Positions 46,408 to 64,000 of a stretch of DNA of 64,000 bases are shown here, in pieces. Under the pieces are notes generated by a model. That model saw nothing but the letters and a program-made list of their open reading frames with translations. It ran no database searches and was not told the origin of the DNA. How positions within the stretch are numbered: position 1 is the stretch's first letter; the number at the start of each line of letters is the position of its first letter. This stretch comes from Microbacterium keratanolyticum. GTDB taxonomy: Bacteria; Actinomycetota; Actinomycetes; Actinomycetales; Microbacteriaceae. The DNA lies in assembly GCF_016907255.1 (NCBI RefSeq), contig NZ_JAFBBQ010000001.1:1860001-1924000 (forward strand). Direction: 5' to 3'. A program made the position numbers and the translations under genes.

Positions 46408-46414
46408 GGCGAGC

Positions 46415-46927: not shown

Positions 46928-48286
46928 TTAGTAGGGGCGGGCGAAGATCTCTCGCTGCGTTCCTGCCGGTGCATCCGCGGGGAGCACCAACACCTTGAGG
47001 AAGCCTTGGTCATCGGTGGCGAGGCACCATTCCAGCAGGCGCATCCGCATCTCTTCTCGCATGGCGTCGAAGGCGGACTCGACCGCCAGATTCCGGCGCT
47101 CGCCCGGATCTGCTTCGATGTCGAAGAGCTGCTCGCGGTAGCGACCCCAGCTGTACACGACGTACTTGTAGGCGCCGTGATAGAGCGCCCGCCCGCGGGT
47201 GCGCGGGGGAGCATCCTGATCGAACAGCGTCTCCACGACGATGCTGCGCGACGCCGTGGCATCCGATTCCCCCGCGTGCTCCACCGGGAGTGCATGTCCG
47301 GGCAGGTCCTCCGGGGTCGCTGTCTGCGCCCAGGCGAGCACGCTCGGCAGGATGTCGATGCTCGCGGACACGCGAGCGCGGCGGGAGCCGGGCGTTACTC
47401 CCGGGCCGCTCACGATCAGAGGCACGCGCACGCACTCCTCGAACAGGGCGGTCTTCTGGTTCCAGCGGTGGGCGCCGTCGCCGTCGCCGTGATCGCTCGT
47501 GACGATGACGATCGTGGATTCGGTGAGGCCCGCGGCGTCAAGACCGTCGAGCAGGACGCCGAGAGCGTCGTCGAAGCGCTCGATCAGCCGTCGATAGGCG
47601 AAGCGGTACTGGCGCCAGTCGTCAGGGGAGTAGTCCAGGGTGCCGTAGGACTGCGCGGCACGGGACTGCTCGTCGCGCACGGCCTGCGACTCGAAGGGCG
47701 CCGGCGCGAAGTTGGCCGGCAGCGGTGGCGCGTCGCGCACGTCTCCGAGGACGATGTCGCCGTAAGGGAGTGGCTGATTGCGCGCGAACTCGCAGATCGT
47801 GTGCGGGTCGTCGAACGACGCTACGAGCAGGAACGGATCATCCGTGACGGCGCGACCGGCGATCCAGGACGTGCACGCGTCGACGAGGCCGACGTCGCCG
47901 AAGGGATGGATGACGTCGAAGCCGGCGTCGTGCGGCGGTTCCGGCGTCGTCGCGTGCCACTTGCCCGCGTAGGCGCAGTCATAGCCCGCGCCGGAGAGCA
48001 GGTGCCCGAGGCTGTCCGGTCGCGTGCCGGGCTCGACCACATCCGCATGACGGTTGCTCATGACGCCGACCTCGTGCGGCATCCGCCCGGTCAGCAGGCT
48101 TGCGCGCGCGGGAACACAGAGCGGGAAGGAGACATACGCGTTCTCGAATGTGGCCCCGGACGCGCGCAGCCGATCCAGATGCGGCGTGCGCACTCCGGCG
48201 CGGTCGCGATCCAGCACGTGGGCCCCGAGCTGATCCGCCATCACGAGCAGAACGTTCGGGCGGGCACCGGGGCCCACGCGGGTCAC
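46928..48286 (-). CDS. Sulfatase 1 (Cys-type, family S1)
   Basis: 452-residue arylsulfatase-superfamily enzyme hydrolysing a sulfate ester. C57 in LCVPARASLLTG is the CxPxR residue that must be converted to formylglycine. NVLLVMADQLGAHVLDRD gives the first metal aspartate, VTSDHGDGDGAHRWNQKTALFEECVRVPLIV the second metal Asp and lysine. No signal peptide, so it acts in the cytosol after uptake. Its start overlaps the permease stop by 4 bp, placing it in the operon binding protein-permease-permease-sulfatase. Substrate unknown. Confidence 0.9.
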   Translation of the reverse strand: MTRVGPGARPNVLLVMADQLGAHVLDRDRAGVRTPHLDRLRASGATFENAYVSFPLCVPARASLLTGRMPHEVGVMSNRHADVVEPGTRPDSLGHLLSGAGYDCAYAGKWHATTPEPPHDAGFDVIHPFGDVGLVDACTSWIAGRAVTDDPFLLVASFDDPHTICEFARNQPLPYGDIVLGDVRDAPPLPANFAPAPFESQAVRDEQSRAAQSYGTLDYSPDDWRQYRFAYRRLIERFDDALGVLLDGLDAAGLTESTIVIVTSDHGDGDGAHRWNQKTALFEECVRVPLIVSGPGVTPGSRRARVSASIDILPSVLAWAQTATPEDLPGHALPVEHAGESDATASRSIVVETLFDQDAPPRTRGRALYHGAYKYVVYSWGRYREQLFDIEADPGERRNLAVESAFDAMREEMRMRLLEWCLATDDQGFLKVLVLPADAPAGTQREIFARPY

Positions 48287-49215
48287 TTGCCCATTCCCAG
48301 AGTGAGGCCCTCGGTCAGGCGGCGACCCAGCCAGAGGTAGATCGCCAGCATCGGAAGCACCACGATGCAGAGTCCGGCGAAGAGACCGCCCCAGTCCGCA
48401 CCCGAGTAGGTCTGCTGCTGGATGAACGAGATGAGCGCGACGGGCAGCGTGTACTTCTCGGTGGACTGCAGCAGGGTCAGTGCGAGCAGTGTCTCGTTCC
48501 AGTGCGAGATGACCTGCAGGACGAAGGCCGTCAGGATGCCGCCCTTCGCCAGCGGCAGCGTGATGCGCCAGAAGGTGCCGAACGCCGTCGTGCCGTCCAG
48601 CGCCGCGGCCTCCTCAAGCTCCAGAGGCAGCGATCGGAAGAACGCGGTCAGCAGGAACACCGTGAACGGCATGGAGACGCCGATGTAGACGAGGTTCAGG
48701 CCGATCAGGCTGTCGGTCAGGTAGACCTCGTTGAGCATCACGAACAGGGGGATCACGATGACCTGAGCGGGGATGCCGAGGCCGAGCACGAAGTACAGAG
48801 TCAGCGAGTTCGTGAGGCGGTTCTCGACGCGGCTGAGGTAGTACGCGGCAGGGGCCGCGAGGAGCACGGTGAGGAACGACGAGACGAGGGTCGTCACGAC
48901 GCTGTTCATCGTCGCGGTCGCGAAGTCGCCGACGGTCCAGGCCGTCACGAAGTTGATCGGGTCGAGCGAGGTGGGCATCCCCCACGGGTCGCTGAGGATC
49001 GCGCGGGTGTCGCGGAACGCCTGGATCACCATCCAGACCATCCACGCCACATTCAGGACGACGAACGACCACAGCAGGACCAGACCGACGCCGCGCAGCA
49101 GGCTGCGCTCGTGGCCGATGGCTGCGCCGCGCCGACGGCGCCGCCGCTTCTGAGGCGGGACGACGACGGCCTCTGTGGAGAGGGTCGGGGTGGGGAGCAT
49201 GTCAGTGGTGGTCAC
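48283..49215 (-). CDS. Carbohydrate ABC transporter permease, MalG type
   Basis: 310 residues, six predicted helices, with an RRRRRR basic stretch in a ~35-residue cytosolic N-terminus. The EAA coupling loop is LPLELEEAAALDGTTAFGTFWRITLPLAKGGI; GIPAQVIVIPLFVMLNEVYLTDSLIGLNLVYIG and the C-terminal LFAGLCIVVLPMLAIYLWLGRRLTEGLTLGMGK are typical MalG. GTG 49215 has AGGAGA upstream. Partner of the MalF-type permease 8 bp upstream. Confidence 0.93.
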   Translation of the reverse strand: MTTTDMLPTPTLSTEAVVVPPQKRRRRRRGAAIGHERSLLRGVGLVLLWSFVVLNVAWMVWMVIQAFRDTRAILSDPWGMPTSLDPINFVTAWTVGDFATATMNSVVTTLVSSFLTVLLAAPAAYYLSRVENRLTNSLTLYFVLGLGIPAQVIVIPLFVMLNEVYLTDSLIGLNLVYIGVSMPFTVFLLTAFFRSLPLELEEAAALDGTTAFGTFWRITLPLAKGGILTAFVLQVISHWNETLLALTLLQSTEKYTLPVALISFIQQQTYSGADWGGLFAGLCIVVLPMLAIYLWLGRRLTEGLTLGMGK

Positions 49216-49223
49216 GATTTCTC

Positions 49224-50189
49224 CTAGAACTCCACCGCATCGCGCTTCATGACGCGACGCAGAAGCAAGACGAGCACCGAGACCAGTGCCAGCGAGAGCA
49301 CAGCCGACGCGGTGGCCGCGCCGTATGCGGGGACCGACTCACCGGAGAAGGCGGTCACGTAGGTGTAGACCGCGGTGGTCCAGGTCTGGGTCGGCGGCAT
49401 GCCGGCGCCCGTGGATCCACCGAAGACCCAGATGATCTCGAAGATCTTCACCGAGGAGATCGTCCAGAGCACGGCGCAGGTGCCGAAGACATCCCAGGTC
49501 AGGGGGAGGATCACGTGGCGCAGACGCTGGAAGGCGTTGGCGCCGGCAAGGGCGCAGTCCTCGTAGTAGTACGGGGGGATGCGGTCGACGCCGGCCATAA
49601 GGATCGTCGTGAAGTAGCCGGTCGTGACCCAGGTCATCATGACCATGATCAGCGGGAACAGGTTGTCGTGCGACAGCCAGGCGGGGGGCTCGTTCACGCC
49701 GAAGACGGCGAGAAGCGAATTGACGAGGCCGCCCGGATTGAAGATGAAGCCGGCCAGGACGCCGAAGATCATCGCGTTCACGAGGTGCGGGAAGAAGATC
49801 ACCGACCGGGCGATCTTCCGTCCTGCCATGTCGCGCAGCACGAGCGTGAGCCCGAAGGCGATCACGAAGATCGCGATGCCGACGACGAACAGCAGCAGCA
49901 GCGTGTTGCCGAACGACTGCAGGAAGAGCTTGTCGGAGAACAGGCGGATGTAGTTGCCGAACCCGACGAACTCCATGGGGCCGGCGCCGGCCCACTTGTT
50001 GAAGCTGATCCAGACCGCGTACCCGGCGGGTACGACGAAGAGCAGCGTGTAGAGCAGGAAGGCCGGTCCCACGAAGGGGACGAACAGGCGCTTGCGGGCG
50101 CGATCGATGGCGTTGCCGCCGGTACGGCCACCCCGAGGGGCAGCCGTACCGACGGTCAGACGCTCTGTCGCGGTGGCGACCTGGGTCAT
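49224..50189 (-). CDS. Carbohydrate ABC transporter permease, MalF type
   Basis: 321 residues, six helices. FVGPAFLLYTLLFVVPAGYAVWISFNKW is the first helix, YYEDCALAGANAFQRLRHVILPLTWDV the EAA loop. ATG 50189 overlaps the binding-protein stop (ATGA). The longer frame to 50288 lies within that gene. With the MalG-type subunit it forms the membrane channel; no ATPase is encoded in the window, so a shared MsiK-like ATPase elsewhere is expected. Confidence 0.93.
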   Translation of the reverse strand: MTQVATATERLTVGTAAPRGGRTGGNAIDRARKRLFVPFVGPAFLLYTLLFVVPAGYAVWISFNKWAGAGPMEFVGFGNYIRLFSDKLFLQSFGNTLLLLFVVGIAIFVIAFGLTLVLRDMAGRKIARSVIFFPHLVNAMIFGVLAGFIFNPGGLVNSLLAVFGVNEPPAWLSHDNLFPLIMVMMTWVTTGYFTTILMAGVDRIPPYYYEDCALAGANAFQRLRHVILPLTWDVFGTCAVLWTISSVKIFEIIWVFGGSTGAGMPPTQTWTTAVYTYVTAFSGESVPAYGAATASAVLSLALVSVLVLLLRRVMKRDAVEF

Positions 50190-51481
50190 GAGTTCTGCTT
50201 CCAGTAGTCGATCTGGCCGCTCTTCATCTGGGCGACGAACTCTGCGGCGGAGATCTTTCCGAGCACCAGCTGATCGATGGTCGGCCACAGCAGCTTCTCG
50301 GTGTAACCGGGGAAGCTGATGCCGTCGTTCTGCTGGTAGTAGCCGTCCGCGTTGTCGAGGGCGGCCTTGACGGTCGACATCTCGGTGCTCACGGTCGCAT
50401 CGCTGCGGATCGGGATGATCTTCGCGTCACTGCCGAGGCTGTCCTGGTAGGACTTGCCGAGGAAGTATGCGGCGAACTTCTGCGCGCTGTCGGCGTTCTT
50501 TGCTCGCGTCGGAACAGCGAACCCGACGAAGTCTGCACGCTGGGCGTTGCTGCCGCCGTCGACCGTCGGGAACGGGAACGACGAGTACTCGAATCCGTCG
50601 GCGGCGTAGGGGCCGGTCTCGGTGGGGATCCAGGTGCCGTTGAAGAGCAGCGCGGCCTTGTTGTCGGCCCAGGCCTGCTGCTGCGCCGGCCACTTGCTGG
50701 CGTTGTAGCCGGAGATGAAGTAGCCGCCCTGGACGAGCTCCTCGACGAGTTCCGCGGCCTTCAGGGCCTCCTTCGAGTCCCAGCCCTCACCGCTCGGGTC
50801 TTCGGCGATCTCCTTGAGCGAGCCGGGGCCCGCGACGCGCACCATCGCGGTCGTGTACCAGTAGGCGTTGTAGCCCGAGACGTCGCCGTCGACGGCGAAT
50901 GGGGTCTCGCCGCCGGCCTTGATCGCGTCGAGGGTGTCGATGAATCCGTCCCAGTCGGCCGGCGGAGCGTCGACGAGCTCGGGGTGGGCGGTCGCGTTGA
51001 ACCAGATCGCATCGCTCGTGAGCGAGTAGGGGAGCATCCACGGGGCGTCGCCGCCCTCGACCGACAGCGTGTCGACGTCGAGGTAGGCGCTCGGGATGAG
51101 GTCGGACACCTTCGAGCCGTCGACCTCGGCGTCGTAGGCGGCCTCGAGCGACTTCGCCTGACCGGTCTCGGCGAGGATCGGCGCGAGCTTCGCGAACGAG
51201 CCATCCACAAGGTCGGGCACCTTGTTCGTGTTGAGCGTGGGCACGACCTTCTTGATGTTGTCACGCCCCTGCCACTGCACGTTGACCTCGATGCCGGTCT
51301 CCTTCTCGAAGTCGGCGATCGCGGCGGCCACGACCTTCTGCTGCGCCTCGCCCTCCTTCCACATGGACCAGTAGGTGAGGGAATCACTCGATGAGTCGCC
51401 CGCGGCGGAAGCGCATCCGCTGGCGGTGACCGCCAGAACGCTGACGAGGGCGAGTGCAGAGAACGTACGGATCTTCGCCAT
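50186..51481 (-). CDS. Sugar-binding lipoprotein of the ABC importer
   Basis: 431-residue family 1 extracellular solute-binding protein with lipobox ASGC23. LTYWSMWKEGEAQQKVVAAAIADFEKETGIEVNVQWQGRD is the typical N-terminal lobe start; NKAALLFNGTWIPTETG, FPFPTVDGG and LGKISAAEFVAQM follow. Aromatic-rich stretches (NAYWYTTAM, GYYQQND) suit carbohydrate stacking. ATG 51481 has AAAGGA upstream. First gene of an operon ending with sulfatase 1, which implies that the ligand is a sulfated or partly sulfated oligosaccharide (inference). Confidence 0.92.
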   Translation of the reverse strand: MAKIRTFSALALVSVLAVTASGCASAAGDSSSDSLTYWSMWKEGEAQQKVVAAAIADFEKETGIEVNVQWQGRDNIKKVVPTLNTNKVPDLVDGSFAKLAPILAETGQAKSLEAAYDAEVDGSKVSDLIPSAYLDVDTLSVEGGDAPWMLPYSLTSDAIWFNATAHPELVDAPPADWDGFIDTLDAIKAGGETPFAVDGDVSGYNAYWYTTAMVRVAGPGSLKEIAEDPSGEGWDSKEALKAAELVEELVQGGYFISGYNASKWPAQQQAWADNKAALLFNGTWIPTETGPYAADGFEYSSFPFPTVDGGSNAQRADFVGFAVPTRAKNADSAQKFAAYFLGKSYQDSLGSDAKIIPIRSDATVSTEMSTVKAALDNADGYYQQNDGISFPGYTEKLLWPTIDQLVLGKISAAEFVAQMKSGQIDYWKQNS

Positions 51482-51550
51482 CGGATTTCCTTTCGTGTCG
51501 AGGGTGCCTCTTCGCCCCTCGGAGCCTCGACTCAAACAAGCACTAGAGAG

Positions 51551-51643
51551 AGTATTCAAGGAGTAATTCAGAATCGATTTCTCTGGGTTTGGCGCGAGAA
51601 CGAACAAAACCCGAGATATCCGAGAGTCCTTCCCTCAAATACT
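51551..51643. promoter_or_regulatory. A/T-rich divergent control region with inverted AGTATT sites
   Basis: AGTATTCAAGGAG (51551-51563) and, inverted, TCCCTCAAATACT (51631-51643, complement AGTATTTGAGGGA) are related 13-mers about 80 bp apart. They lie in a markedly A/T-rich 220-bp gap between the importer operon and the GntR/LacI hybrid gene, so they are candidate half-sites for that regulator. Confidence 0.45.
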
Positions 51644-51702
51644 TCTTTATTCCTCTCTTCTGGAGAGGCAGACTCGGAGAAGTACGTAGGAGGGGAGAAG
51701 CC

Positions 51703-52821
51703 GTGGCGACACGACGATCTGTGATTCGCGATGCGGATTCGAAGGGGCTGAAGTTCGAGGCCCTTGCGGATGAATTGCGCCGCGGAATCCTTGCGGGCAC
51801 CTGGACGGCGGGGCAGAAGCTCCCGACCGAGCAGCAGCTCGCAGAAGAGACCGGATACTCCCTGACAACGGTACGCCGTGCATTCGACGACCTGGTGGCG
51901 GAGGGCGTCGTCGTGCGTCGTCAGGGCGCGGGCAGCTTCGTCGCCCACACCCGTCCGCGCGAGCAGCGGGCGCGACGTCGCATCGGCGTGCTGCTGCCCG
52001 ACACTCAGCTCTACTACCCCCGCGTGCTGCAGGGCATCGACGAGTCGCTGTCGGCTGCAGGTGCGAGCCTGCAGCTCGCGACCTACCGCTACGACCGGAC
52101 CAAAGAGGATGCGGCGATCGAGTCCCTGCTGGATGCCGGTGTCGACGGGCTGCTGCTTTCTCCGACTCTCACCGAGATCGACGACCCGGATGCGCGGGCC
52201 CAGACGCTCATGCAGCTCCCCGTACCTGTCGTGATGGTCGAGCGCAGCCTTGTGGACCTCGGGCCGCGTGACCGCACAGAGCACGTCTGCTCGGACCACC
52301 GCGGTGGCGCCTACGACGCGGTGCAGCACCTTGCGGCCCTGGGTCATCAGCGCATCGCTCTGCTCATGCGCGAGCGGACCCCCACTGGACCTGCGATCAT
52401 GAACGGCTACCGCCACGCGATCGCCGATCTCGGTCTTCCCTCGGGGCTGGAGTTCACCCAGGCGAAGACCGCCTGGGAGGTCGACTCGGCGCAGGGCGCC
52501 TTTGATCGGCTGCGCGAGCTCGAGGCGACGGCGGCGCTCGTCTTCGGCGACCGTGAGGCCACGCTGCTGCAGGGCGCCATCCGCCGCAGTGGCCTGAGCG
52601 TGCCCGGCGACATCGCGCTCGTCTCCTATGACGATGAGGTCGCCGACCTCGCGGAGGTGCCGCTGAGCGCGGTCGCCCCGCCCAAGTACCGCATCGGACG
52701 GATGGCCGCCGACGTGCTGCTGCGTCGCCTCATCGAGGGCGATGACTGTCCGCTGCATCAGATCAGACTTCGGCCGCGCATCGTCATCCGCCGCTCGTGC
52801 GGCGCTGTCGTGGCCGAGTAA
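51703..52821 (+). CDS. GntR/LacI hybrid transcriptional regulator
   Basis: 372 residues. N-terminal GntR winged helix (about 15-85): LKFEALADELRRGILAGTWTAGQKLPTEQQLAEETGYSLTTVRRAFDDLVAEGVVVRRQGAGSFV. C-terminal LacI-like sugar-binding domain (about 95-365): RRIGVLLPDTQLYYPRVLQGIDESL, GVDGLLLSPTL, ALVSYDDEVADLAEVPLSAVAPPKYRIGRMAADVLLRRL. This is the AraR-type architecture. GTG 51703 follows AGGAGGGG. It diverges from the importer and leads the Gfo/Idh-sulfatase genes, so it probably controls both arms in response to a sugar. Confidence 0.9.
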   Translation: MATRRSVIRDADSKGLKFEALADELRRGILAGTWTAGQKLPTEQQLAEETGYSLTTVRRAFDDLVAEGVVVRRQGAGSFVAHTRPREQRARRRIGVLLPDTQLYYPRVLQGIDESLSAAGASLQLATYRYDRTKEDAAIESLLDAGVDGLLLSPTLTEIDDPDARAQTLMQLPVPVVMVERSLVDLGPRDRTEHVCSDHRGGAYDAVQHLAALGHQRIALLMRERTPTGPAIMNGYRHAIADLGLPSGLEFTQAKTAWEVDSAQGAFDRLRELEATAALVFGDREATLLQGAIRRSGLSVPGDIALVSYDDEVADLAEVPLSAVAPPKYRIGRMAADVLLRRLIEGDDCPLHQIRLRPRIVIRRSCGAVVAE

Positions 52822-52836
52822 CGACGAAGGAGTTTC

Positions 52837-53835
52837 ATGCGTATCGGACTGATTGGCGCCGGGGCAGTCGCCAAGTACCACGTCGAGGCCGCGCTGGCGC
52901 TGCCCGGCGCGCGCTTCACGGCGATCTGCGATCTCGATGAATCCGCCGCGGCGCGCGCCGCGAAGGACGTCGAAGGCGTGCAGTTCTTCACGGACTACCG
53001 GGCGCTCGTCGAGAGTGACGATGTCGATGCGGTCATCGTGAACACTCCGCATGCGCTGCACCTGCCCATGGCGATCGACGCGGCGCGCGCGGGCAAGCAC
53101 GTTCTCGTGGAGAAGCCGATGGCGACGAGCCTCGCCGACTGCGACCTCATGCAGGAGGAGACGGCCGCTGCCGGGGTGAAGCTGGCCGTCGGCCACATCC
53201 AGCATTTCCTTCCCGACAAGGTCGCGGCGCGCGCCCTTCTGGAGCAGGGCGAACTCGGCGAGGTCGTGATGATCCGCGACCAGCGCAGCACTGACTATCG
53301 TCCCGGAACCCGTCCGGAGTGGTTCTTCTCCCGACCGATCGCGGGTGGCGGCGCGCTCATCAACATCGGAGGGCACTGCCTGGATCGCGCGCTCTGGTTC
53401 GGCGGCGCGCCGGCGGTCGAGGTGAGCGCCAGCGTGGCGCAGCGCTTCGGTGTTCCGGTCGAGACGGATGGCACGATCGCGCTGCGCCTGGCCAACGGTG
53501 TCGGCGTGACGATCGCCGTCGTGAGCGATCCGCCCGCGCGCAGTGACCTGCTGGCGATCGTGTGCGAGCGAGGAGTGATCGAGGCAGACCCGCGCGTGGG
53601 GACTCTGGTCCGCGTCGACGGACACACCCGCGTCGTGCGCGACCCGGATGCCGGCGACATCCAGCAGGCCTTCACCGCGCAACTCGCGGACTTCCTCGGT
53701 GTGATCGACGGCGACGCCCCTGCGGTGCCGCTCGAACACGCACGGCACGTCGTCGAGCTCGTTCTCGCCAGCTACGAGTCCGCCGCCGCGCAGCGCTCGC
53801 TGCAGATTCCTCTCCGCGCAGAGGTGCCGGCGTGA
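52837..53835 (+). CDS. Gfo/Idh/MocA-family oxidoreductase 1
   Basis: 332 residues. MRIGLIGAGAVAKYHVEAALALPGARFTAICDLD is the NAD(P) Rossmann motif (GxGxxA); VEKPMATSLADCDLM carries the EKP lysine, and GGGALINIGGHCLDRALWF the catalytic His region. It oxidises a hydroxyl of a sugar or sugar derivative. AAGGAG precedes ATG. The stop overlaps the GTG of sulfatase 2, so the two are coupled: the sugar is probably both oxidised and desulfated. Confidence 0.92.
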   Translation: MRIGLIGAGAVAKYHVEAALALPGARFTAICDLDESAAARAAKDVEGVQFFTDYRALVESDDVDAVIVNTPHALHLPMAIDAARAGKHVLVEKPMATSLADCDLMQEETAAAGVKLAVGHIQHFLPDKVAARALLEQGELGEVVMIRDQRSTDYRPGTRPEWFFSRPIAGGGALINIGGHCLDRALWFGGAPAVEVSASVAQRFGVPVETDGTIALRLANGVGVTIAVVSDPPARSDLLAIVCERGVIEADPRVGTLVRVDGHTRVVRDPDAGDIQQAFTAQLADFLGVIDGDAPAVPLEHARHVVELVLASYESAAAQRSLQIPLRAEVPA

Positions 53836-55286: not shown

Positions 55287-55288
55287 GC

Positions 55289-56674: not shown

Positions 56675-56683
56675 GCACCTCCG

Positions 56684-58117
56684 CTACGAGATGACGGGGG
56701 AGAGAGCTCGAAGAGCGTCGGCCCCCTCGAAGTCATCGTCGGTCGCGTCGAGCGCGGCGATGAGTCGTTGCGCGAGCAGACCCGCCGCGGCGGAGTCTGC
56801 CGCATTGCGCGCCTCGAACGGGTCGCTCGTCAGGTCGTAGTACTCCACGCGCAGCCCAGTGGTCGGCTCCCACGTCGTGATCAGCTTGTCGATGCGGGTG
56901 CGGATGCCGCGGGCGCTGCTGTGATCGCTGCGTGAGGGGTAGCGGTAGTAGAGAGCCGCGGGATCAGCAGATTCCGGGGCCTCTCCGCGGAGGGCCGCGG
57001 AACTGTCCTGACCGACCATCTGCGGGGGGATCGCGTGCGCGAGGCCCGCGAGGCCGAGCAGGGTGGGTGCGAATCCGAGGGAGTCGATCAGCTCGCCGCT
57101 CTCCTGCGCCGGCAGCAGCCCGGGGGAGTGCACGATGAGCGGAATGCGCATCGACTCCTCGTAGCCGACGTTCTTGTAGAGCAGCCCGTGGCTGCCGAGC
57201 TGCATGCCGTGGTCCGAGGTGAACACCAGGATCGGTGCGGGAGAATCCGGGTCGGATGCGTCCCGGAGGTCGTCGAGTGCGGCGACAAGCCGGCCGATCT
57301 CCGCGTCGACGCCGGAGACGGCGGCGAAGTAGTCTGCGGCGACGGAAGCGGCCTCGTCCACGGCGGCCGCTTCGGCGGAACCGGGCGCGGCGTCGTGTGG
57401 CACGTTAGGGCGCGTGAGGAGATCCGCCCCGTCGACGTCGGCATAGAGCGCGCGGTATTGCTCGGGCACCTGATCGAACGGCTGATGCGGAGGGTTCAGA
57501 GAGACCATGAGGGCGAACGGCGACGCATCCGCGCTGTGCCCGCGGATGAAGTCGATCGCGATGTCGATCTCGTGCTCGGCCGACCACTGGTCGACATCGA
57601 TGCGCTCGCCGCGTTCTGCATCCCCATGCCAGTAGTGCGGCGCCAGATGGCGGTCAGCGGCACCGTAGGAGTACCAGAAGTCGAACCCGAACCGACGCGC
57701 GGGCGGCGACCAGGCGTCCCACACCTTGCCGTCCGGGCGGCGCCCCTCGCCGTGCGTCTCGTCATCGGGGGTGGGCGGTTCGAGGTGCCATTTGCCGATG
57801 TAGCCCGTGCGGTATCCGTGCGCGCGCAGGACGCTCGCCCAGGTCGGAAGCCCGTCGCGCAGGCCGACGCCGTCTGCTCCGGTCTCGGAGTTGACGTTGA
57901 GCGTGACGCCGTTGTCGACCGGGCGCAGTCCGGTGAGGAACATCGCCCGGTGCGGGCTGCACACGGGATAGCTGCTGACGGCATGGCGCACGAGACGCCC
58001 CTCGCGCGCGAGACGATCCAGATGGGGTGTGCTGACCGGATCCTCTCCGAGAAGTCCCAACGCCGAAGCGCGGAACTGATCGGCCATGACGACGACGATG
58101 TGCGGGTGTGCAGGCAT
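56684..58117 (-). CDS. Sulfatase 4 (CSPHR variant)
   Basis: 477 residues. C53 in YPVCSPHRAMFLTGLRPVDNG is the modifiable cysteine with His at the fourth motif position where Ala or Ser is usual; CxPxR itself is intact. HIVVVMADQFRASALG, GYIGKWHLEPP, LMVSLNPPHQPF and FTSDHGMQLGSHGLLYKNVGYEESMRIPLIV complete the site. ATG 58117 has GAGGAG upstream. It is transcribed away from the DUF2264 gene across 108 bp with a 9-bp inverted repeat, so it may be under separate control from sulfatases 2 and 3. Confidence 0.91.
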   Translation of the reverse strand: MPAHPHIVVVMADQFRASALGLLGEDPVSTPHLDRLAREGRLVRHAVSSYPVCSPHRAMFLTGLRPVDNGVTLNVNSETGADGVGLRDGLPTWASVLRAHGYRTGYIGKWHLEPPTPDDETHGEGRRPDGKVWDAWSPPARRFGFDFWYSYGAADRHLAPHYWHGDAERGERIDVDQWSAEHEIDIAIDFIRGHSADASPFALMVSLNPPHQPFDQVPEQYRALYADVDGADLLTRPNVPHDAAPGSAEAAAVDEAASVAADYFAAVSGVDAEIGRLVAALDDLRDASDPDSPAPILVFTSDHGMQLGSHGLLYKNVGYEESMRIPLIVHSPGLLPAQESGELIDSLGFAPTLLGLAGLAHAIPPQMVGQDSSAALRGEAPESADPAALYYRYPSRSDHSSARGIRTRIDKLITTWEPTTGLRVEYYDLTSDPFEARNAADSAAAGLLAQRLIAALDATDDDFEGADALRALSPVIS

Positions 58118-58165
58118 GGGGCTCCTCTGTACGGCGGGCTCTCTTCGATCAAAGCGGCTGCGCAC

Positions 58166-58201
58166 CAGAGGATTCCACGACTTTTGGTCTGTAATCCTCT
58201 G
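58166..58201. promoter_or_regulatory. Inverted repeat between sulfatase 4 and the DUF2264 gene
   Basis: CAGAGGATT (58166-58174) and AATCCTCTG (58193-58201) are exact complements 18 bp apart. Placement between divergent starts suggests an operator for a dimeric regulator shared by both genes. Confidence 0.55.
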
Positions 58202-58225
58202 CTCGTCTCCGCGGACGATGGGGAC

Positions 58226-60172
58226 ATGCCCTCTCGTCTGCTCGCTTCTGCCCTCACGGCAACGCCGTGGATGCCCGCCTTCGACCCTGACGCGTCCCCG
58301 TTCACCGGGTACACGCGTGCGCACTGGGAATCCGCTGCCGATCGGCTGCTCGCCGGCGCACGTGCGCACGCGCTAGAGGGTGGTGCGCTGATCGATTTCT
58401 CTGCGGCTGCGTCGTCGGCTCCGGTCGATCGACTCGAAGGGTTCGCCCGGGTGTTCCTGCTCGCGGCGCTGCGGATCGCGGGTGACCCGTCGGCGCGGGC
58501 GGAGGACGCGGAGTACTGGCGCGAGGCGCTGCGCCGAGGCGTCGCGGGTCGCCTCTGGTTGCCGTTGACCGATCACAGTCAGCCCACCGTGGAGGCATCC
58601 GTGGTTGCGATCGGCTTGCATGTCGCGCGCGCCGAGCTCTGGGAGCCACTGGACGAGGCGACGAAGATCGGCATCTGCGAGTGGTTCGACGGGGCGGCGG
58701 GCACCTGGTGCGCCGACAACAATCACGTGCTGCTCGGCGCGACGCTCGCCGCCTTCACGACAAGCGTCGGCTTCGGCGATCGGCGCGCCCTCATCGAGAA
58801 CGCGCTCGACCGCATGGAGGACTGGTATCGCGGCGACGGCTGGTACACGGATGGCGACGGTCGGCGTTTCGACTACTACAACGCCTACGCGTTCCACTGG
58901 TATCCGTTCTTCATCGCCCGCATGCTCGGCTCTCGTCTGGATGACCGACGGGCGGAGTATCGCGGGCGACTTGCGGCGTTCCTCGATGGCTATCAGCACC
59001 TGTTCTCGCCGAGCGGTGCGCCCATCCTGATGGGGCGCTCGCTCATCTACCGCTGGGGGATCACGGCTCCGTTCTGGATGGCTCGCTGGGAGGGTGTGGA
59101 GTCCCTGCCGCCGTCACGGATGCGGCGGATCGCCAGCGGAACGCTGCGGTACTTCGCCGACCAGGGCGTGCTCGATGACGGGGCGCTCTCACTGGGCTGG
59201 CGACGAAACGCATCGCGCGACATCGTGCAGTCGTACAGCGGATCAGGCTCTCCCTACTGGTCGAGCAAGGGATTCCTCGGGCTGCTCCTCCCGGCCGATG
59301 ACGCGGTCTGGACCGATGTCGAGGCGCCGATGGTCTCGGAGGAGCGGGATGTGCGGGTGCCGTTGCATGCTCCGCGTTGGTTCATCGAAAGCCGGGACGG
59401 GCTCGTCACGCTGCACAACTTCGGCAGCGACGGTCACCCCACGCGAGACGACCACCTCTACCGGCGTCTGCTGTTCTCCTCGGCGACGGTGCCGGTGCGC
59501 GGCGAGAGCATGCGCGACGCCGATCTGACCGTGGAGGGGGCAGTGCACCGGGCTGTGGACACCGCGACCGTCACGCCCCGTGGCGGAGCGGTGACGCGCG
59601 CGCTCGACGCCGCGGGGCGGCACGTCGACACCTCCGTCTGCGCACACGTGACCGGGGATGCGACCGTGTATCTCGCGCGCGTTCGCGGCGCTGTCGGGCT
59701 GTCGGTGACGGTGAGCGGCGCAGCGGTGTCGTGGGACGACGCGGATGCGCTCGATGTGCACGATCGTGTCTCATCGGCCGGCGAAGCCGCGGTCGCCACG
59801 GCGGGACTGCGATCGGTGATCCGCTGGCTCGGAGCCTGGCACGCGGAGGCGGGACCCAGCCCTGCGGAGGCTGCGCTTCTCCCGGTGGAGGCACTGATCG
59901 AGCAGGCTCCCGAGGGAACCGCGTTGGGCGACCATGCGGCGTTTCCGCGGGTGCGCACGTCGCCACTCCGCGGTGACGTCGTGATCGCCTGGGCGGTCTC
60001 GCTGCGTGCAGGGGCGAACGGGGGCGCGGAGATTCGCTCAGAGGTCTCCGACGTGCACGTCGCCGAGGACCATGTGCGTCTGCGTCTCGACGGTGAAAAG
60101 CGCGTGTTCCGATGGGCGGCGTCTGAGCGATTCGACGGTGATCGTCGCGCACAGCAGGTCTTCCGTCCCTGA
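58226..60172 (+). CDS. DUF2264-domain protein
   Basis: 648 residues. The N-terminal ~370 residues match the DUF2264 pattern, an alpha-helical toroid-like region (FLLAALRIAG, EYWREALRRGV, NNHVLLGATLAAFTTSVG, YRGDGWYTDGDGRRFDYYNAYAFHWYPFFIARM). The C-terminal part is beta-rich. No signal peptide. The family is uncharacterised but recurs in polysaccharide-use clusters; the fold resembles (alpha/alpha) barrels of unsaturated-glycuronyl hydrolases and lyases, so action on an oligosaccharide is a reasonable guess. ATG 58226 is chosen because the frame further upstream is antisense to sulfatase 4. Confidence 0.82.
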   Translation: MPSRLLASALTATPWMPAFDPDASPFTGYTRAHWESAADRLLAGARAHALEGGALIDFSAAASSAPVDRLEGFARVFLLAALRIAGDPSARAEDAEYWREALRRGVAGRLWLPLTDHSQPTVEASVVAIGLHVARAELWEPLDEATKIGICEWFDGAAGTWCADNNHVLLGATLAAFTTSVGFGDRRALIENALDRMEDWYRGDGWYTDGDGRRFDYYNAYAFHWYPFFIARMLGSRLDDRRAEYRGRLAAFLDGYQHLFSPSGAPILMGRSLIYRWGITAPFWMARWEGVESLPPSRMRRIASGTLRYFADQGVLDDGALSLGWRRNASRDIVQSYSGSGSPYWSSKGFLGLLLPADDAVWTDVEAPMVSEERDVRVPLHAPRWFIESRDGLVTLHNFGSDGHPTRDDHLYRRLLFSSATVPVRGESMRDADLTVEGAVHRAVDTATVTPRGGAVTRALDAAGRHVDTSVCAHVTGDATVYLARVRGAVGLSVTVSGAAVSWDDADALDVHDRVSSAGEAAVATAGLRSVIRWLGAWHAEAGPSPAEAALLPVEALIEQAPEGTALGDHAAFPRVRTSPLRGDVVIAWAVSLRAGANGGAEIRSEVSDVHVAEDHVRLRLDGEKRVFRWAASERFDGDRRAQQVFRP

Positions 60173-60257: not shown

Positions 60258-60271
60258 GGAAAGCGCTTACC
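60258..60271 (+). promoter_or_regulatory. LacI-type operator upstream of the DUF993 operon
   Basis: GGAAAGCGCTTACC is a near-perfect palindrome around CG, the classic LacI/CcpA-like half-site AAGCGCTT. It lies 77 bp before the oxidoreductase ATG; TTGCAC at 60226-60231 could be the -35 of the promoter just before it. The cognate LacI protein is not in the window next to this operon. Confidence 0.62.
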
Positions 60272-60347: not shown

Positions 60348-61511
60348 ATGTCTTCCACCCAGACCCGCGAGATCGGCATCATCATGAACGGCGTCTCCGG
60401 ACGCATGGGCTACCGCCAGCACCTCGTGCGCTCGATCCTCGCGATCCGCGACCAGGGCGGCATCGTGCTCTCCGACGGCAGCCGCGTGACCGTCCGCCCG
60501 CTGCTCGTCGGCCGCAACGAGCAGAAGCTCGCCGAGATCGCCGCAGAGCATGGCATCGAGGACTACACGACCGACCTCGACGCCGCCCTCGCCGACCCGA
60601 TGTGGGAGATCTACGCCGACTTCCTCGTCACCAAGGCGCGCGCCACGGCGATCCGCAAGGCGATCGCCGCAGGCAAGGCGATCTACACCGAGAAGCCCAC
60701 GGCCGAGTCCCTCGAAGAGGCACTCGAACTCGCGAGCCTCGCGAAGGCGGCCGGCATCAAGACCGGTGTCGTGCACGACAAGCTCTACCTGCCGGGCCTG
60801 CAGAAGCTCAAGCGCCTCATCGACTCCGGCTTCTTCGGACGCATCCTCTCGGTGCGCGGCGAGTTCGGCTACTGGGTCTTCGAGGGCGACTGGCAGCCCG
60901 CGCAGCGCCCCAGCTGGAACTACCGCACGGAAGACGGCGGCGGCATCATCTCGGACATGTTCCCGCACTGGAACTACGTGCTGGAGAACCTGTTCGGCGA
61001 GGTCAAGAGCGTCTACGCCCAGGCCGCCGTGCACATCGCTGACCGCTGGGACGAGAACGGCGAGCACTACAACGCCACCGCCGAAGACGCCGCCTACGGC
61101 ATCTTCGAGATCGAGGGGGGCATTGTCGCCGAGATCAACTCCAGCTGGACCGTCCGCGTGAACCGCGACGAGCTCGTCGAGTTCCAGGTCGACGGCACGC
61201 ACGGCTCGGCCGTCGTCGGCCTCTTCGGCTGCAAGATCCAGCCGCGCAACGCGACGCCCAAGCCGGTGTGGAATCCCGATCTGGAAGACACCCGCGACTA
61301 CGACGCCGATTGGCAGCAGGTGCCCACGAACGACGTCTTCCTCAACGGCTTCCGTCAGCAGTGGGAGGAGTACCTGGAGTCGTACGTGCTCGGCACCGAC
61401 TACGCCTTCGACCTGCTGGCCGGTGCGCGCGGCGTGCAGTTCGCCGAGGCGGGACTCAGCTCCAGCGCCGAGGGTCGCAAGATCGTTCTCAACCCGCTGA
61501 GCCTGGCCTGA
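60348..61511 (+). CDS. Gfo/Idh/MocA-family oxidoreductase 2
   Basis: 387 residues. The N-terminus EIGIIMNGVSGRMGYRQHLVRSI carries a GxxGRMG nucleotide loop unlike the GxGxxA of oxidoreductase 1 and reminiscent of dihydrodipicolinate reductase. YTEKPTAESLEEALELA contains the EKP lysine; TEDGGGIISDMFPHWNYVLENL the catalytic Asp/His region. The unusually conserved tail (LGTDYAFDLLAGARGVQFAEAGLSS) marks a subfamily that travels with DUF993 and sugar isomerase genes. First gene of the final operon (stop 61511, next ATG 61516). Confidence 0.9.
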   Translation: MSSTQTREIGIIMNGVSGRMGYRQHLVRSILAIRDQGGIVLSDGSRVTVRPLLVGRNEQKLAEIAAEHGIEDYTTDLDAALADPMWEIYADFLVTKARATAIRKAIAAGKAIYTEKPTAESLEEALELASLAKAAGIKTGVVHDKLYLPGLQKLKRLIDSGFFGRILSVRGEFGYWVFEGDWQPAQRPSWNYRTEDGGGIISDMFPHWNYVLENLFGEVKSVYAQAAVHIADRWDENGEHYNATAEDAAYGIFEIEGGIVAEINSSWTVRVNRDELVEFQVDGTHGSAVVGLFGCKIQPRNATPKPVWNPDLEDTRDYDADWQQVPTNDVFLNGFRQQWEEYLESYVLGTDYAFDLLAGARGVQFAEAGLSSSAEGRKIVLNPLSLA

Positions 61512-61515
61512 TCCC

Positions 61516-62688
61516 ATGACCACTCTTCGCTTGCTCGCGGCATCCGGGGCCACCTCGGATGTGCCGCTCAACGACTCCGGCGTCTACACGCGCCCGACGT
61601 CGCCGCTGCGCAGCCGCGTCGCCTACGCGGCCGCGCACGTCGTACCGAAGACGCACGCCGACAACACCCCGGGTCAGCCCGCCGACATCGACTGGGATGC
61701 CACGCTCGCGTTCCGCCGCAATGTGTACTCCTGGGGTCTCGGCGTCGCCGATGCCATGGATACCGCGCAGCGGAACATGGGTCTGGATGCCGCCGCGACG
61801 CGCGAACTGATCGCGCGCAGCGCCGAGGTCGCCCGTGAGGAGGGCGGATCCGTTGTCGTCGGCGTCAACACGGATCAGGTGGACGAGACGCACATCTCGC
61901 TCGACCAGGTCATCGATGCCTACAAGGGGCAGCTGCATTTCACCGAGGAGCAGGGTGCGGGGCCGGTGCTCATGGCCTCGCGTCACCTGGCGCGCACCGC
62001 GCAGAGCGCCGACGACTACCGCCGCGTGTACCGCGAGGTGTTGGCCAGCGCGACGACTCCGGTCGTGCTGCACTGGCTCGGCACGGCGTTCGACCCGGAG
62101 CTCGCGGGATACTTCGGCGCGGATGATTGGCAGACGGCCTCGGCGGTTCTGCTCGACATCATCAACGAGAACCCGTCGAAGATCGCGGGCGTGAAGATGA
62201 GCCTGCTCAACGCCGAGAGCGAGATCTCGGTGCGCGAGCGCCTCCCCGAGGGAGTGCGCATGTTCACCGGCGACGACTTCAACTACGTCGGACTCATCGG
62301 CGGCGACACCGTCGGTCAGGATGAAAGCCACTCGGATGCCTTGCTCGGTGCTTTCGCGGCGATCACGCCGGTCGCCTCCGCGGCGATCCAGGCGCTGGAT
62401 GCCGGCGATCCCGCGCGCTACCTCGAGATCCTCGGCCCGACCGAAGAGCTCAGCCGGCAGGTGTTCGCCGCACCCACCTTCTACTACAAGACGGGTGTCG
62501 CGTTCCTCGCCTGGCTCAACGGGCACCAGCCCGCGTTCCAGATGGTGGGCGGCCTGCACTCCGCACGCAACCTGCCGCACCTGAGTCGCATCATCGAGTT
62601 GGCCAACGCCTCGCTCGCCCTCGAAGTTCCGGAGCTCGCGCGCGAGCGCTGGCACGGGATGCTGCGCCTGAACGGGATCGACGCATGA
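61516..62688 (+). CDS. DUF993 protein, DapA-like TIM barrel
   Basis: 390 residues, annotated in related genomes as dihydrodipicolinate-synthase family/DUF993. PVVLHWLGTAFDPELAGYFG and KIAGVKMSLLNAESEISVRERLPEGVRMFTGDDFNYVGLIGGD are the core; the lysine in GVKMS is placed like the Schiff-base lysine of class-I aldolases of the DapA fold. That suggests retro-aldol cleavage or dehydration of a keto-sugar acid. It overlaps the next gene (ATGA). The family has no established reaction known to me. Confidence 0.85.
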   Translation: MTTLRLLAASGATSDVPLNDSGVYTRPTSPLRSRVAYAAAHVVPKTHADNTPGQPADIDWDATLAFRRNVYSWGLGVADAMDTAQRNMGLDAAATRELIARSAEVAREEGGSVVVGVNTDQVDETHISLDQVIDAYKGQLHFTEEQGAGPVLMASRHLARTAQSADDYRRVYREVLASATTPVVLHWLGTAFDPELAGYFGADDWQTASAVLLDIINENPSKIAGVKMSLLNAESEISVRERLPEGVRMFTGDDFNYVGLIGGDTVGQDESHSDALLGAFAAITPVASAAIQALDAGDPARYLEILGPTEELSRQVFAAPTFYYKTGVAFLAWLNGHQPAFQMVGGLHSARNLPHLSRIIELANASLALEVPELARERWHGMLRLNGIDA

Positions 62689-63551
62689 GCGCCGTGGATC
62701 CTCGCCTGTCGATCAACCAGGCGACCATCAAGTACGCCGATCTCGCCACGGCCCTGCGGGTGACCGCAGACGCCGGCGTCGAGGCGATCGGCCTGTGGCG
62801 CGAACCGGTGAACGAGGTCGGACTCGATGTCGCGACGAAGATGCTCGCCGACTCCGGTCTGCGGTTCACGACGCACTGCCGTGGAGGCTTCTTCACTCTC
62901 CCCGCGGGGGCGGCGCGGGATGCCGCACTCGACGACAACCGTCGTGCGATCGACGAGACCGCGGCGCTGGCCGCCGCGGGTGCAGAGGGATCGACCGCTG
63001 TGCTGGTGCTCGTCGCCGGCGGCCTTCCTGAGGGCTCGCGCGACATCGTCGGCGCACGAGAGCGCGTGCGCGACGCGCTCGGCACGCTCGCACCGTATGC
63101 CCAGAGCGCCGGCGTGACGCTCGCGATCGAGCCGCTGCATCCGATGTTCTCGTCCGACCGCTGCGTTGTCTCGACCCTCAGCCAGGCGCTCGACATCGCC
63201 GCGGACTTCGCCCCTGAGGTCGTCGGTGCAGCCGTCGACACCTTCCACATCTGGTGGGATCCGCAGGTCGAGGAGCAGATCGCCCGCGCAGGGCGCGAAG
63301 GTCGCATCGCCACCTATCAGGTGTGCGACTGGGCGACCCCGCTGCCTGCCGACGTGCTGCTGTCACGGCACTACATGGGCGATGGCGTGATCGACTTCAC
63401 CGCGCTGACTCGTGCGGTGATCGCGACCGGATACGACCGCGACATCGAGGTCGAAATCTTCAACGCTGACATCTGGAGCCGCCCCGCCGACGTCGTCGTG
63501 CGCGAGACGATCGAGTCGTTCGCGCGGACCGTGTCGCCGGTGCTGCGCTAG
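62685..63551 (+). CDS. Sugar phosphate isomerase/epimerase-like TIM barrel 1
   Basis: 288 residues, AP-endonuclease-2/xylose-isomerase-like fold. LSINQATIKYADLATALRVTADAGVEAIGLWREPVNEVG is the first barrel unit; TLAIEPLHPMFSSDRCVVST gives metal Glu, VGAAVDTFHIWWDPQVEEQI gives Asp/His, and VEIFNADIW the last metal Glu. By family it could isomerise, epimerise or eliminate on a keto-sugar. The start overlaps the DUF993 stop, so the products likely act in sequence. Confidence 0.87.
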   Translation: MSAVDPRLSINQATIKYADLATALRVTADAGVEAIGLWREPVNEVGLDVATKMLADSGLRFTTHCRGGFFTLPAGAARDAALDDNRRAIDETAALAAAGAEGSTAVLVLVAGGLPEGSRDIVGARERVRDALGTLAPYAQSAGVTLAIEPLHPMFSSDRCVVSTLSQALDIAADFAPEVVGAAVDTFHIWWDPQVEEQIARAGREGRIATYQVCDWATPLPADVLLSRHYMGDGVIDFTALTRAVIATGYDRDIEVEIFNADIWSRPADVVVRETIESFARTVSPVLR

Positions 63552-63585
63552 GAACCGGCCACACACGACGTGAGAGAGTGACACG

Positions 63586-64000
63586 ATGACCACGATCCGA
63601 CCCGGCCTGTGCTCGGTGACCTTCCGCGCGCACACGCCCGAGCAGATCATCGAGGCCGCCGCCGCGGCGAAGCTCGAGGTCATCGAATGGGGCGGTGACG
63701 TGCACGTGCCGCCCGGAGACGTCCGCACGGCGGAGCGGGTTGCGACAGCGACCCGCTCCGCCGGGCTGCTCTCCTGCTCGTACGGTTCGTACTATCGGGC
63801 GACGCCGTCCGACGAACTCGCTCCCGTGCTCGACAGCGCAGAGGCGCTGGGTGTCGATCGCGTCCGGATCTGGGCGGGGCGCACCGCCTCGAAGGATGTC
63901 AGCGTCGCAGAGCGCGACGCCCTCGCCGATCGGCTGCAGGACGCGGCTGAGGCAGCCGCGCAGCGCGGCATCCGCCTCGCCCTCGAATACCATGCGCGCA
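63586..64000 (+). CDS. Sugar phosphate isomerase/epimerase-like TIM barrel 2, 3' partial
   Basis: Open from ATG 63586 to the right edge (138 codons, no stop). MTTIRPGLCSVTFRAHTPEQIIEAAAAAKLEVIEWGGDVHV is the start of a second xylose-isomerase-like barrel, followed by ALGVDRVRIWAGR and GIRLALEYHAR, where the expected metal Glu (LEYH) is seen. GAGAGAG precedes the ATG. It is 34 bp after the previous gene and belongs to the same operon. Confidence 0.85.
   Translation, partial: MTTIRPGLCSVTFRAHTPEQIIEAAAAAKLEVIEWGGDVHVPPGDVRTAERVATATRSAGLLSCSYGSYYRATPSDELAPVLDSAEALGVDRVRIWAGRTASKDVSVAERDALADRLQDAAEAAAQRGIRLALEYHAR

Follow-up and report, generated by a model that had tools for sequence, protein, structure and literature searches.

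The 64,000-nucleotide stretch analyzed here (the window) covers positions 1860001-1924000 of the 3.07-Mb single-contig genome of Microbacterium keratanolyticum (G000), whose nearest relatives are other Microbacterium; M. commune (G036) belongs to the same genus. The last 17 kb of the window, from position 46928 onward, harbor two units with differing distributions. Unit 1 (46928-60172) is composed of four sulfatases (A-D), an ATP-binding cassette (ABC) sugar importer, a GntR/LacI regulator, a Gfo/Idh-type oxidoreductase (Gfo/Idh-1) and a DUF2264 protein; unit 2 is composed of a second oxidoreductase (Gfo/Idh-2), a DUF993 protein and two xylose-isomerase-like barrels (TIM1 and TIM2), followed by genes for a LacI regulator and a glycerate kinase. 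Unit 1 is a conserved, portable cassette, complete in two other Microbacterium and partial in three other families, and its gene content suggests that it probably serves the use of glycosaminoglycan (GAG) fragments of the chondroitin sulfate/dermatan sulfate (CS/DS) type. Genes were called from Pfam profiles, open reading frames (ORFs) and genome search, the start codons of seven genes were shifted by inspection, and all functions were read from sequence comparison. Throughout the text, G numbers denote genomes and L numbers denote loci fetched for comparison.

Unit 1 begins on the minus strand with sulfatase A (46928-48286; PF00884), followed on the same strand by the importer: a MalG-type permease (48283-49215; PF00528), which has counterparts in G126, G036 and G706 at 90-95% identity and 91-100% query coverage, a MalF-type permease (49224-50189; PF00528, with its start reset to 50189 among the start codons) and a solute-binding lipoprotein (SBP; 50186-51481; PF01547, start reset to 51481) with a hydrophobic N-terminus and the lipobox ASGC. 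Divergently, on the plus strand, lie the regulator (51703-52821, start reset to 51703), which joins a GntR helix-turn-helix (PF00392) to a LacI-type sensor (PF13377), then Gfo/Idh-1 (52837-53835; PF01408), sulfatase B (53832-55286, start reset to 53832) and sulfatase C (55289-56674, start reset to 55289). Sulfatase D (56684-58117, start reset to 58117) returns to the minus strand and DUF2264 (58226-60172; PF10022) to the plus strand. All of unit 2 is on the plus strand: a LacI-type operator read directly from the sequence (GGAAAGCGCTTACC, 60258-60271), Gfo/Idh-2 (60348-61511; Pfam, and a relative of PDB 3oqb), DUF993 (61516-62688; PF06187), TIM1 (62685-63551; AP_endonuc_2), a relative of SMc04130 (PDB 3ju2), and TIM2 (63586-64362; AP_endonuc_2). 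Beyond the window follow the LacI gene (64405-65484) and the glycerate kinase gene (65481-66593). The preliminary description of this DNA had listed these 17 kb as one island; every gene on its list is present, but they fall into two units and TIM2 runs past the end of the window at 64000.

A single 17-kb island is ruled out because unit 2 occurs by itself. The Gfo/Idh-2-DUF993-TIM1 block recurs at 74-92% identity in 80 loci, mostly of Microbacterium (3.6-21 kb each; nine are shorter than 15 kb and some end at contig edges), with Gfo/Idh-2 in 79, TIM1 in 80, TIM2 in 33 and glycerate kinase in 42. Within these stretches none of the 80 has an orthologue of sulfatases A-D; three (L017, L061 and L073) contain another sulfatase at 26-32% identity, and one (L044) comes from M. 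commune, whose cassette sits elsewhere on the chromosome. The conserved, non-sulfated context named in the preliminary description as a possible objection is found in part, for unit 2 only, and even unit 2 lies near the cassette in three other genomes. In five of the 79 loci with Gfo/Idh-2 (L023, L031, L034, L035 and L044), a gene of the major facilitator superfamily (MFS) and a pair of MarR genes (a single one in L034) directly precede Gfo/Idh-2, with a gap of 118-281 bp between MarR and Gfo/Idh-2. The window has the counterparts of these genes (an MFS transporter and then two MarR-family regulators, 44163-46864), and since they end at 46864, with 13.5 kb separating them from Gfo/Idh-2, the segment 46928-60172 is best read as an insertion beside a genus-wide locus. 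Base composition is uninformative on acquisition (G+C 0.677 in the cassette and 0.685 in the window). There are no tRNA genes in the window, no integrase or transposase domains among the genes scanned (43841-66590) and only 8-base chance repeats at the cassette ends.

Two surveys define the distribution of unit 1. Among 295 Microbacterium genomes, relatives of DUF2264 occur in 101 and a close copy in four, our own included (58-75% identity besides our own, at most 43% in the others); this survey undercounts cassettes lacking DUF2264. In a 396-genome sample of the order, sulfatase D was found at E <= 1e-90 in six genomes (our own included) of four genera, and a separate list of sulfatase D matches includes relatives at 60-81% identity in further Microbacterium, Agromyces and Isoptericola. 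When 73 of the 120 listed DUF2264 matches were compared with 117 of the 120 listed sulfatase D matches, 16 of the 73 apparently shared a contig with a sulfatase D match. The cassettes themselves were compared in stretches of 32-36 kb (95 kb in our own genome). G126 and G036 keep all ten genes of unit 1, in order and relative orientation, at 54-95% identity. G706 has seven genes (sulfatases D and B, Gfo/Idh-1, regulator, SBP and both permeases), G887 has eight (sulfatase B, Gfo/Idh-1, regulator, SBP, both permeases and sulfatases D and A), and G909 and G918 have eight each (sulfatase C, regulator, SBP, both permeases and sulfatases D, A and B). Sulfatases B and D are therefore present in all seven cassettes, from four families, always together with the ABC sugar importer and the sugar-type regulator; Gfo/Idh-1 is in the cassette of five of the seven carriers and was not found in those of G909 and G918. 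A further relative, G251, has the regulator, Gfo/Idh-1, DUF2264 and a TIM2-like gene, with no sulfatases seen in the 32 kb fetched. The gene-content conservation that the preliminary description proposed to look for is seen for unit 1, in full in G126 and G036 and in part in four other genomes, with unit 2 being distributed separately. Searching plasmids with sulfatase D returned only Proteus, Vibrio, Aureibacter and Bacteroides records, all below 60% identity. IS110-type transposase genes lie inside or beside two related cassettes (L177:5685-6824 in G887; L180:7667-8959 in G909), and beside sulfatase A in G126 a 536-residue protein (L124:1313-2920) has only a sub-threshold Melibiase_C match.

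The four sulfatases carry the PF00884 domain and the C-x-P-x-R motif (CVPAR, CSPAR, CSPSR and CSPHR). In each of them the domain begins within ~10 residues of the chosen start, and a strongly hydrophobic N-terminal segment is, unlike in the SBP, absent on inspection; because they show no signal peptides, the sulfatases are presumably cytoplasmic. Their motif and lack of signal peptides had already been noted in the preliminary description, and both are confirmed by Pfam, the ORFs and inspection of the N-termini. Sulfatase A, over its full length, best matches 3b5q and 5g2t in the PDB (E 5e-42), the latter named a 2-O GAG sulfatase. Measured against the published 2-O-sulfatase signatures, it scores 4/5 for signature B, 10/12 for signature C (with the P-H-x-I-C motif) and 10/12 for signature D, and has the C-terminal signature E; the best values among sulfatases B-D and the four other sulfatases of the genome are 3/5, 6/12, 9/12 and none, respectively. 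Signatures C and E set sulfatase A clearly apart, signature D barely does (9/12 in L002), and signature A is non-discriminating (4/7 in sulfatase A, up to 6/7 in the others). By these features sulfatase A is a probable S1_9-like delta-4,5-hexuronate-2-O-sulfatase, predicted to act in the cytoplasm.

Sulfatase D best matches 2qzu (a putative sulfatase, 1e-91), 6j66 (a CS/DS 4-O-endosulfatase, 1e-88), 8di0 (an arylsulfatase, 3e-79) and 6s21 (an endo-4-O-sulfatase, 1e-63). Two of these four chains are named as CS/DS or endo-4-O-sulfatases and 29 orders of magnitude separate the four from the next match (2e-34); sulfatase D is put forward as a probable S1_27-like CS/DS 4-O-sulfatase of N-acetylgalactosamine (GalNAc). 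The nearest PDB chain to sulfatase B is the N-acetylhexosamine (HexNAc)-6-O-sulfatase 5g2v of subfamily S1_11, a weak likeness; sulfatase C is nearest to a carrageenan exo-4S sulfatase and to 7stt, named a GalNAc-6-sulfatase. The genome encodes a formylglycine-generating enzyme (1985108-1985941; PF03781, E 2e-82) and has a second, weaker PF03781 match at 3000616 (5e-28), so that both the motif and the maturation enzyme of S1 formylglycine sulfatases are present. The preliminary description was right that no such enzyme lies in the island; the genome as a whole has one.

The same distinction applies to its statement that there is no polysaccharide lyase, which holds for the island and not for the genome: a PL8 gene lies at 1037334-1038161. 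Its product has, by eye, a twin-arginine-like leader and the Asn-His-Tyr spacing of the lyase TT16 of Microbacterium WS15. The surrounding locus (L194, 1027001-1047000) contains an SBP and two permeases, 34-42% identical to their cassette counterparts, a 2-hydroxyacid dehydrogenase, a flavin adenine dinucleotide-dependent oxidoreductase and a GntR/LacI regulator, a 53%-identical paralogue of the cassette regulator; it is a second GAG-type locus of this genome. PL8 (PF02278) was found in six of eight carriers or near-carriers tested, our own genome included, and in two of them it adjoins the cassette. In G706 the PL8 gene (L176:9301-11703) lies 0.9 kb past the permeases, a TIM-barrel gene occupying the interval; G887 has two PL8 genes, of the chondroitin-ABC-lyase and Lyase_8_N types, between sulfatase B and Gfo/Idh-1, separated by an IS110-type transposase gene. 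Of the marks of described CS/DS loci, a GAG lyase is represented in the genome by the predicted PL8 enzyme, and an S1_9 2-O-sulfatase by the signatures of sulfatase A; no island sulfatase has an S1_15 GalNAc 6-O-sulfatase as its best match, and Pfam gives no GH88 match in the genome. On this comparison the substrate is most likely a CS/DS fragment with a 4,5-unsaturated uronate end.

DUF2264 is predicted to be an (alpha/alpha) toroid followed by a beta-sandwich. Among proteins of known structure, it is related to 8oi4 (GH154) and to the beta-D-glucuronate dehydratase BcGDH of Bacteroides caccae (9o4u and 9nwf), and GH154 members have been proposed to be dehydratases (PMC12269599). Of the ten BcGDH active-site residues compared, all of them targets of mutation in BcGDH (E74, R78, N176, N177, W178, F181, Y229, R285, Y289 and Y354), eight are identical in DUF2264 (E71, R75, N165, N166, Y218, R271, Y275 and Y337; the first two mapped by spacing, the remaining ones by alignment), the two substitutions being W to H167 and F to L170. 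Seven of these eight are invariant in all 50 aligned sequences and N165 is conserved in 45. In a Foldseek search with the AlphaFold model (pLDDT 91.2), GH154/dehydratase chains take ranks 1-9, with template modeling (TM) scores of 0.70-0.77 over the target, and from rank 10 onward alginate, xanthan, heparin, hyaluronate and chondroitin lyases align over most of the length at TM 0.3-0.56. By fold and catalytic residues we predict DUF2264 to be a GH154-type beta-D-glucuronate dehydratase; the preliminary description had recognized no glycoside hydrolase or polysaccharide lyase of known family here, and this assignment to GH154, with the fold of uronic-acid lyases, supersedes it. Gene neighborhoods, as an independent line of evidence, also favor a uronate dehydratase: 40 of 51 GH88-like places in Microbacterium have a DUF2264 gene 4.3-5.2 kb upstream on their own strand, counting 51 of 57 GH88-like places (the six weakest excluded) and 130 of 134 DUF2264 places (excluding the copy in our genome and three that are fragmentary or weak). 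One of these, in Microbacterium G269 (L172, 9468-19088), is an operon with the order DUF2264-SBP-permease-permease-DUF624-like-GH88-like-FAH-SDR-KduI, likely a glucuronide pathway; the 39 further places are known by coordinates. DUF2264 relatives also occur in many rhizobial plasmids.

The importer consists of the lipobox-bearing SBP and two permeases; the cassette itself lacks an ATPase gene. The divergent SBP/regulator promoter region holds two putative operators. Element 1 (ATTACTCCTTGAATACT, 51551-51567, minus strand) has a single match in the window where 0 are expected, is identical in G126 and G251, differs by 1-2 mismatches in G706 and G036, and does not occur within 3 mismatches in G887, G909 or G918. 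Element 2 (AATACTTCTTTATTCC, 16 bases, 51638-51653, plus strand) likewise has a single match in the window; in G887 it occurs with 2 mismatches before sulfatase B and before the second PL8 gene, and at up to 3 mismatches L177 contains three matches, including one before the SBP, where shuffled sequences gave none. It was not found in G909 or G918. The unit 2 operator GGAAAGCGCTTACC is identical or near-identical before Gfo/Idh-2 in L023, L031, L034 and L044.

We consider the following route for CS/DS fragments likely as a whole. An extracellular PL8 lyase from the other locus, or other organisms, would release sulfated oligosaccharides, which the SBP and two permeases would import with an assumed shared ATPase. 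In the cytoplasm, formylglycine-activated sulfatase A would remove the 2-O-sulfate of the 4,5-unsaturated uronate, sulfatase D the GalNAc 4-O-sulfate, and sulfatases B and C whatever sulfates are left on GalNAc/HexNAc. Where a fragment ends in a saturated glucuronate, DUF2264 would convert this residue by dehydration into its 4,5-unsaturated counterpart, bringing termini that no lyase has produced into the same route. The uronyl-GalNAc bond would then be cut by an enzyme not recognizable as GH88/GH105, with Gfo/Idh-1 as the strongest candidate among the cassette genes, and the uronate remnant would pass to unit 2 (Gfo/Idh-2, TIM1/TIM2, the DUF993 aldolase and glycerate kinase). The GntR/LacI regulator may respond to the imported fragment. 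The suggestion in the preliminary description that a sulfated oligosaccharide is imported and desulfated inside the cell is supported as an interpretation and sharpened to a CS/DS fragment.

Several observations weigh against this proposal. GH88/GH105 and KduI are the canonical next enzymes in such a pathway, and the whole genome has no Pfam match to either GH88/GH105 (PF07470) or KduI/IolB. PL8 was not found in G126 (a 50-contig draft) or G251, and the PL8 matches in G909 and G918 are weaker (~1e-15); PL8 also includes lyases of unsulfated chains, namely those for hyaluronate and xanthan. Because an IS110-type transposase gene lies between its PL8 genes, the PL8 neighborhood of G887 may be partly accidental. 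None of sulfatases A-D has an S1_15 GalNAc-6-sulfatase chain as its best PDB match, and sulfatases B and C can be given no firm subfamily on the present comparisons. The cassettes of G706, G887, G909 and G918 lack DUF2264, unit 2 is common without the cassette and did not appear in the 32 kb covered at the G887 cassette, and the putative operator was not found at our own PL8 locus or in G909/G918. The ligand of the regulator need not be sulfated, it would seem, because G251 keeps the regulator, Gfo/Idh-1 and DUF2264 without sulfatases nearby and without a PL8 match.

Beyond the Pfam search of our own genome, the 55 genomes with a GH88 match include none of G126, G036 and G251, and tblastn with one Microbacterium GH88-like query gave no match in the 32-36 kb (95 kb in our own genome) surrounding each of the seven cassettes; for G706, G887, G909 and G918 the GH88 search covered these stretches. 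Because the GH88-like proteins of the genus match Pfam modestly (many near 1e-14), a divergent GH88 could be missed; because the genome has no Pfam GH88/GH105 match, unconventional cleavage is possible. Gfo/Idh-1 is the sole recognized redox enzyme of the cassette and is retained in G251, where no sulfatases are nearby; a 2-hydroxyacid dehydrogenase gene lies near TIM2 in G909 and near the regulator in G918. One speculative and quite improbable GH88-free route would have the unsaturated disaccharide, made by PL8 or DUF2264, desulfated in the cytoplasm and oxidized by Gfo/Idh-1 at its allylic C3 hydroxyl; the resulting enone would lose GalNAc by beta-elimination and the product would enter the uronate pathway (Gfo/Idh-2, TIM1/TIM2, DUF993 aldolase and glycerate kinase) instead of the KduI/KduD/KDG kinase pathway. 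If this were true, dehydration and oxidation would jointly substitute for a glycoside hydrolase.

The step could also follow a different division of labor, in line with the oxidative cleavage suggested in the preliminary description, in which Gfo/Idh-1 oxidizes a sugar at C3, TIM2 breaks the glycosidic bond by 3-keto beta-elimination and DUF2264 is a side enzyme. The absence of GH88/GH105 from the genome and of any other recognized glycosidase from the cassette would suit this arrangement, as would the matches of Gfo/Idh-1 to the glucuronide-3-dehydrogenase 8tdi (7e-20) and to DgpA-type chains (1e-25 to 4e-22), the 70%-identical TIM2 directly after DUF2264 in G251, the TIM2 relatives after the sulfatases in G909/G918 and the other TIM barrel between permease and PL8 in G706. 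We nevertheless find it doubtful, as Gfo/Idh-1 falls far under the NCBIfam cut-offs for glycoside and disaccharide 3-dehydrogenases (51 bits against 750 for the glycoside-3-dehydrogenase model, with the BT_2158 and BT_2159 families also far under cut-off), many other Gfo/Idh enzymes match it equally well or better, it was not found in the G909/G918 cassettes, and TIM2 occurs in 33 of the 80 unit 2 loci, which are without the cassette. DUF2264 could instead be an exo-acting oligosaccharide lyase that itself breaks the chain in the cytoplasm. Its model folds like polysaccharide lyases once the GH154 chains are passed, and its beta-sandwich falls outside the region that can be aligned with the 400-residue dehydratases; set against the dehydratase family as top match in both sequence and fold and the retained catalytic residues, however, this seems unlikely, and dehydration is also catalyzed by BT3677, a family member for which a second domain is predicted (PMC12269599).

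Whether the glycan is CS/DS is a separate question. Another sulfated uronate glycan (ulvan-like, a sulfated arabinogalactan or a sulfated plant or microbial glucuronide) could be handled by the same chemistry of import, cytoplasmic desulfation and uronate dehydration. The wide spread of DUF2264 relatives set out above, with a close copy in so few genomes of the genus and many relatives on rhizobial plasmids, would fit such a substrate, as would the carrageenan sulfatases nearest to sulfatase C and the sulfatase-free gene set of G251. We judge it fairly improbable given the PL8 genes adjoining the cassette in two families, the sulfatase A signatures, which are those of enzymes acting on GAG-lyase products, and the closeness of sulfatase D to CS/DS 4-O-sulfatases. 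S1 sulfatases also hydrolyze aryl and choline sulfates, and sub-threshold matches to choline-sulfatase and arylsulfatase models might point to sulfur scavenging from aryl or alkyl sulfates, with the sugar genes as chance neighbors. These matches are far under the curated cut-offs, and sulfatases B and D keep the same importer and regulator in seven of seven carriers from four families; low model scores and constant sugar-type partners rule this out as the main explanation and leave it highly improbable.

For the proposed CS/DS route, unit 2 plausibly acts downstream of uronate release. DUF993 is predicted to be an aldolase-type protein of the DHDPS superfamily: 4dnh (SMc04132) ranks first in PDB and Foldseek comparisons, followed by DHDPS chains (the model being of moderate confidence, pLDDT 68.7), and Lys227, invariant in the motif GVKMS, is a candidate for the strand-6 Schiff-base lysine typical of these (beta/alpha)8-barrel class I aldolases. 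Glycerate kinase is encoded in the window genome and in 42 of the 80 related loci, and beside DUF993 in Glaciihabitans and two rhizobial plasmids, and G706 has a Dak-type kinase; because such kinases accompany it, unit 2 is suggested to yield a C3 product. In G706, G909 and G918 the distance between unit 2 and the sulfatase cassette is 3-9 kb, and a DUF2264 gene lies within ~10 kb in 14 of the 80 unit 2 loci where 0.19 would be expected (the loci are related, so no P-value is given); given these proximities, the view that unit 2 is irrelevant was rejected. Unit 2 is elsewhere in G036 and not beside the G126 cassette. Of six unit 2 loci with an upstream DUF2264, five were searched for GH88 (L014, L015, L022, L029 and L036) and none had it; an 848-residue frame in L014 was rejected as not being a clean gene. 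A plasmid of Glaciihabitans sp. INWT7 (L130, 6655-13186) has DUF2264 immediately next to Gfo/Idh-2, DUF993, a TIM barrel and glycerate kinase; genes for CoA-transferase and enoyl-CoA hydratase are close by. Two Sinorhizobium meliloti plasmids (L133 and L134) also place DUF993 with CoA-transferase and enoyl-CoA hydratase genes, L133 having acyl-CoA dehydrogenase and glycerate kinase genes in addition; this rhizobial association of DUF993 is unexplained by the proposed model.

The use of sulfated GAGs is best described in Gram-negative Bacteroides, where sulfate is removed in the periplasm and the disaccharide is split by GH88. The locus of B. thetaiotaomicron for CS/DS and hyaluronan includes PL8, PL29, GH88, S1_27 and S1_15, with the S1_9 enzyme BT1596 encoded elsewhere (PMC6994673, PMC10154612, PMC9067506). 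Our system resembles it in PL8, a probable S1_9-kind 2-O-sulfatase, a probable near-S1_27 4-O-sulfatase and the predicted desulfation of unsaturated disaccharides (PMC6994673, PMC10154612), and the preliminary description's view that there is no obvious described equivalent gives way to this functional parallel with the PL8, S1_9 and S1_27 enzymes of Bacteroides. It differs in having an ABC importer rather than SusC/D, presumably cytoplasmic sulfatases without signal peptides by inspection, a GntR/LacI regulator rather than a hybrid two-component system, and a DUF2264 dehydratase within the cassette, with GH88 not found. The chondroitin polysaccharide utilization locus 25 of B. caccae (BcPUL25) pairs BcGDH with PL35 and GH88 and lacks a CS-specific sulfatase (PMC12269599). 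Unit 1 shares with it the BcGDH (GH154) fold and eight of the ten active-site residues in DUF2264, and differs in its sulfatases, in GH88 not being found and in the extra C-terminal beta-sandwich domain of DUF2264. BcPUL25 also holds a GH109, a family with a Gfo/Idh-type fold. With 3-keto-glycoside systems (the BT_2158 family and DgpA) our locus shares the Gfo/Idh and AP_endonuc_2 families side by side; unlike in those systems, no model of that pathway reaches its cut-off here. Within the genus, the PL8 lyases HCLaseM of Microbacterium sp. H14 (PMC6950261) and TT16 of WS15 (PMC12666371) are active on hyaluronan and chondroitin sulfates; these papers cover the lyases only, the words "sulfatase" and "GH88" occurring 0 times in their main texts. 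In the literature searched, which left most subscription journals outside, we found no title or abstract opening that describes this cassette and no mention of DUF2264 or DUF993.

From its gene content, the cassette appears to be a new, actinobacterial version of a known pathway type, with desulfation in the cytoplasm. If so, a phylum other than that of Bacteroides carries out desulfation intracellularly, perhaps with a different reaction for cutting the disaccharide, and this GH88-free question is the main interest of the system. DUF2264, DUF993 and two orphan Gfo/Idh enzymes would gain a concrete substrate class, and the four new sulfatases would be possible tools for GAG analysis. Two further genes were seen in passing: a galactokinase-like GHMP kinase gene of 490 residues at 40698-42170 of the window, which may have to do with galactose or GalNAc use, and a GH95-type glycoside hydrolase adjoining Gfo/Idh-2 and DUF993 in G909 (L180:13559-15895).

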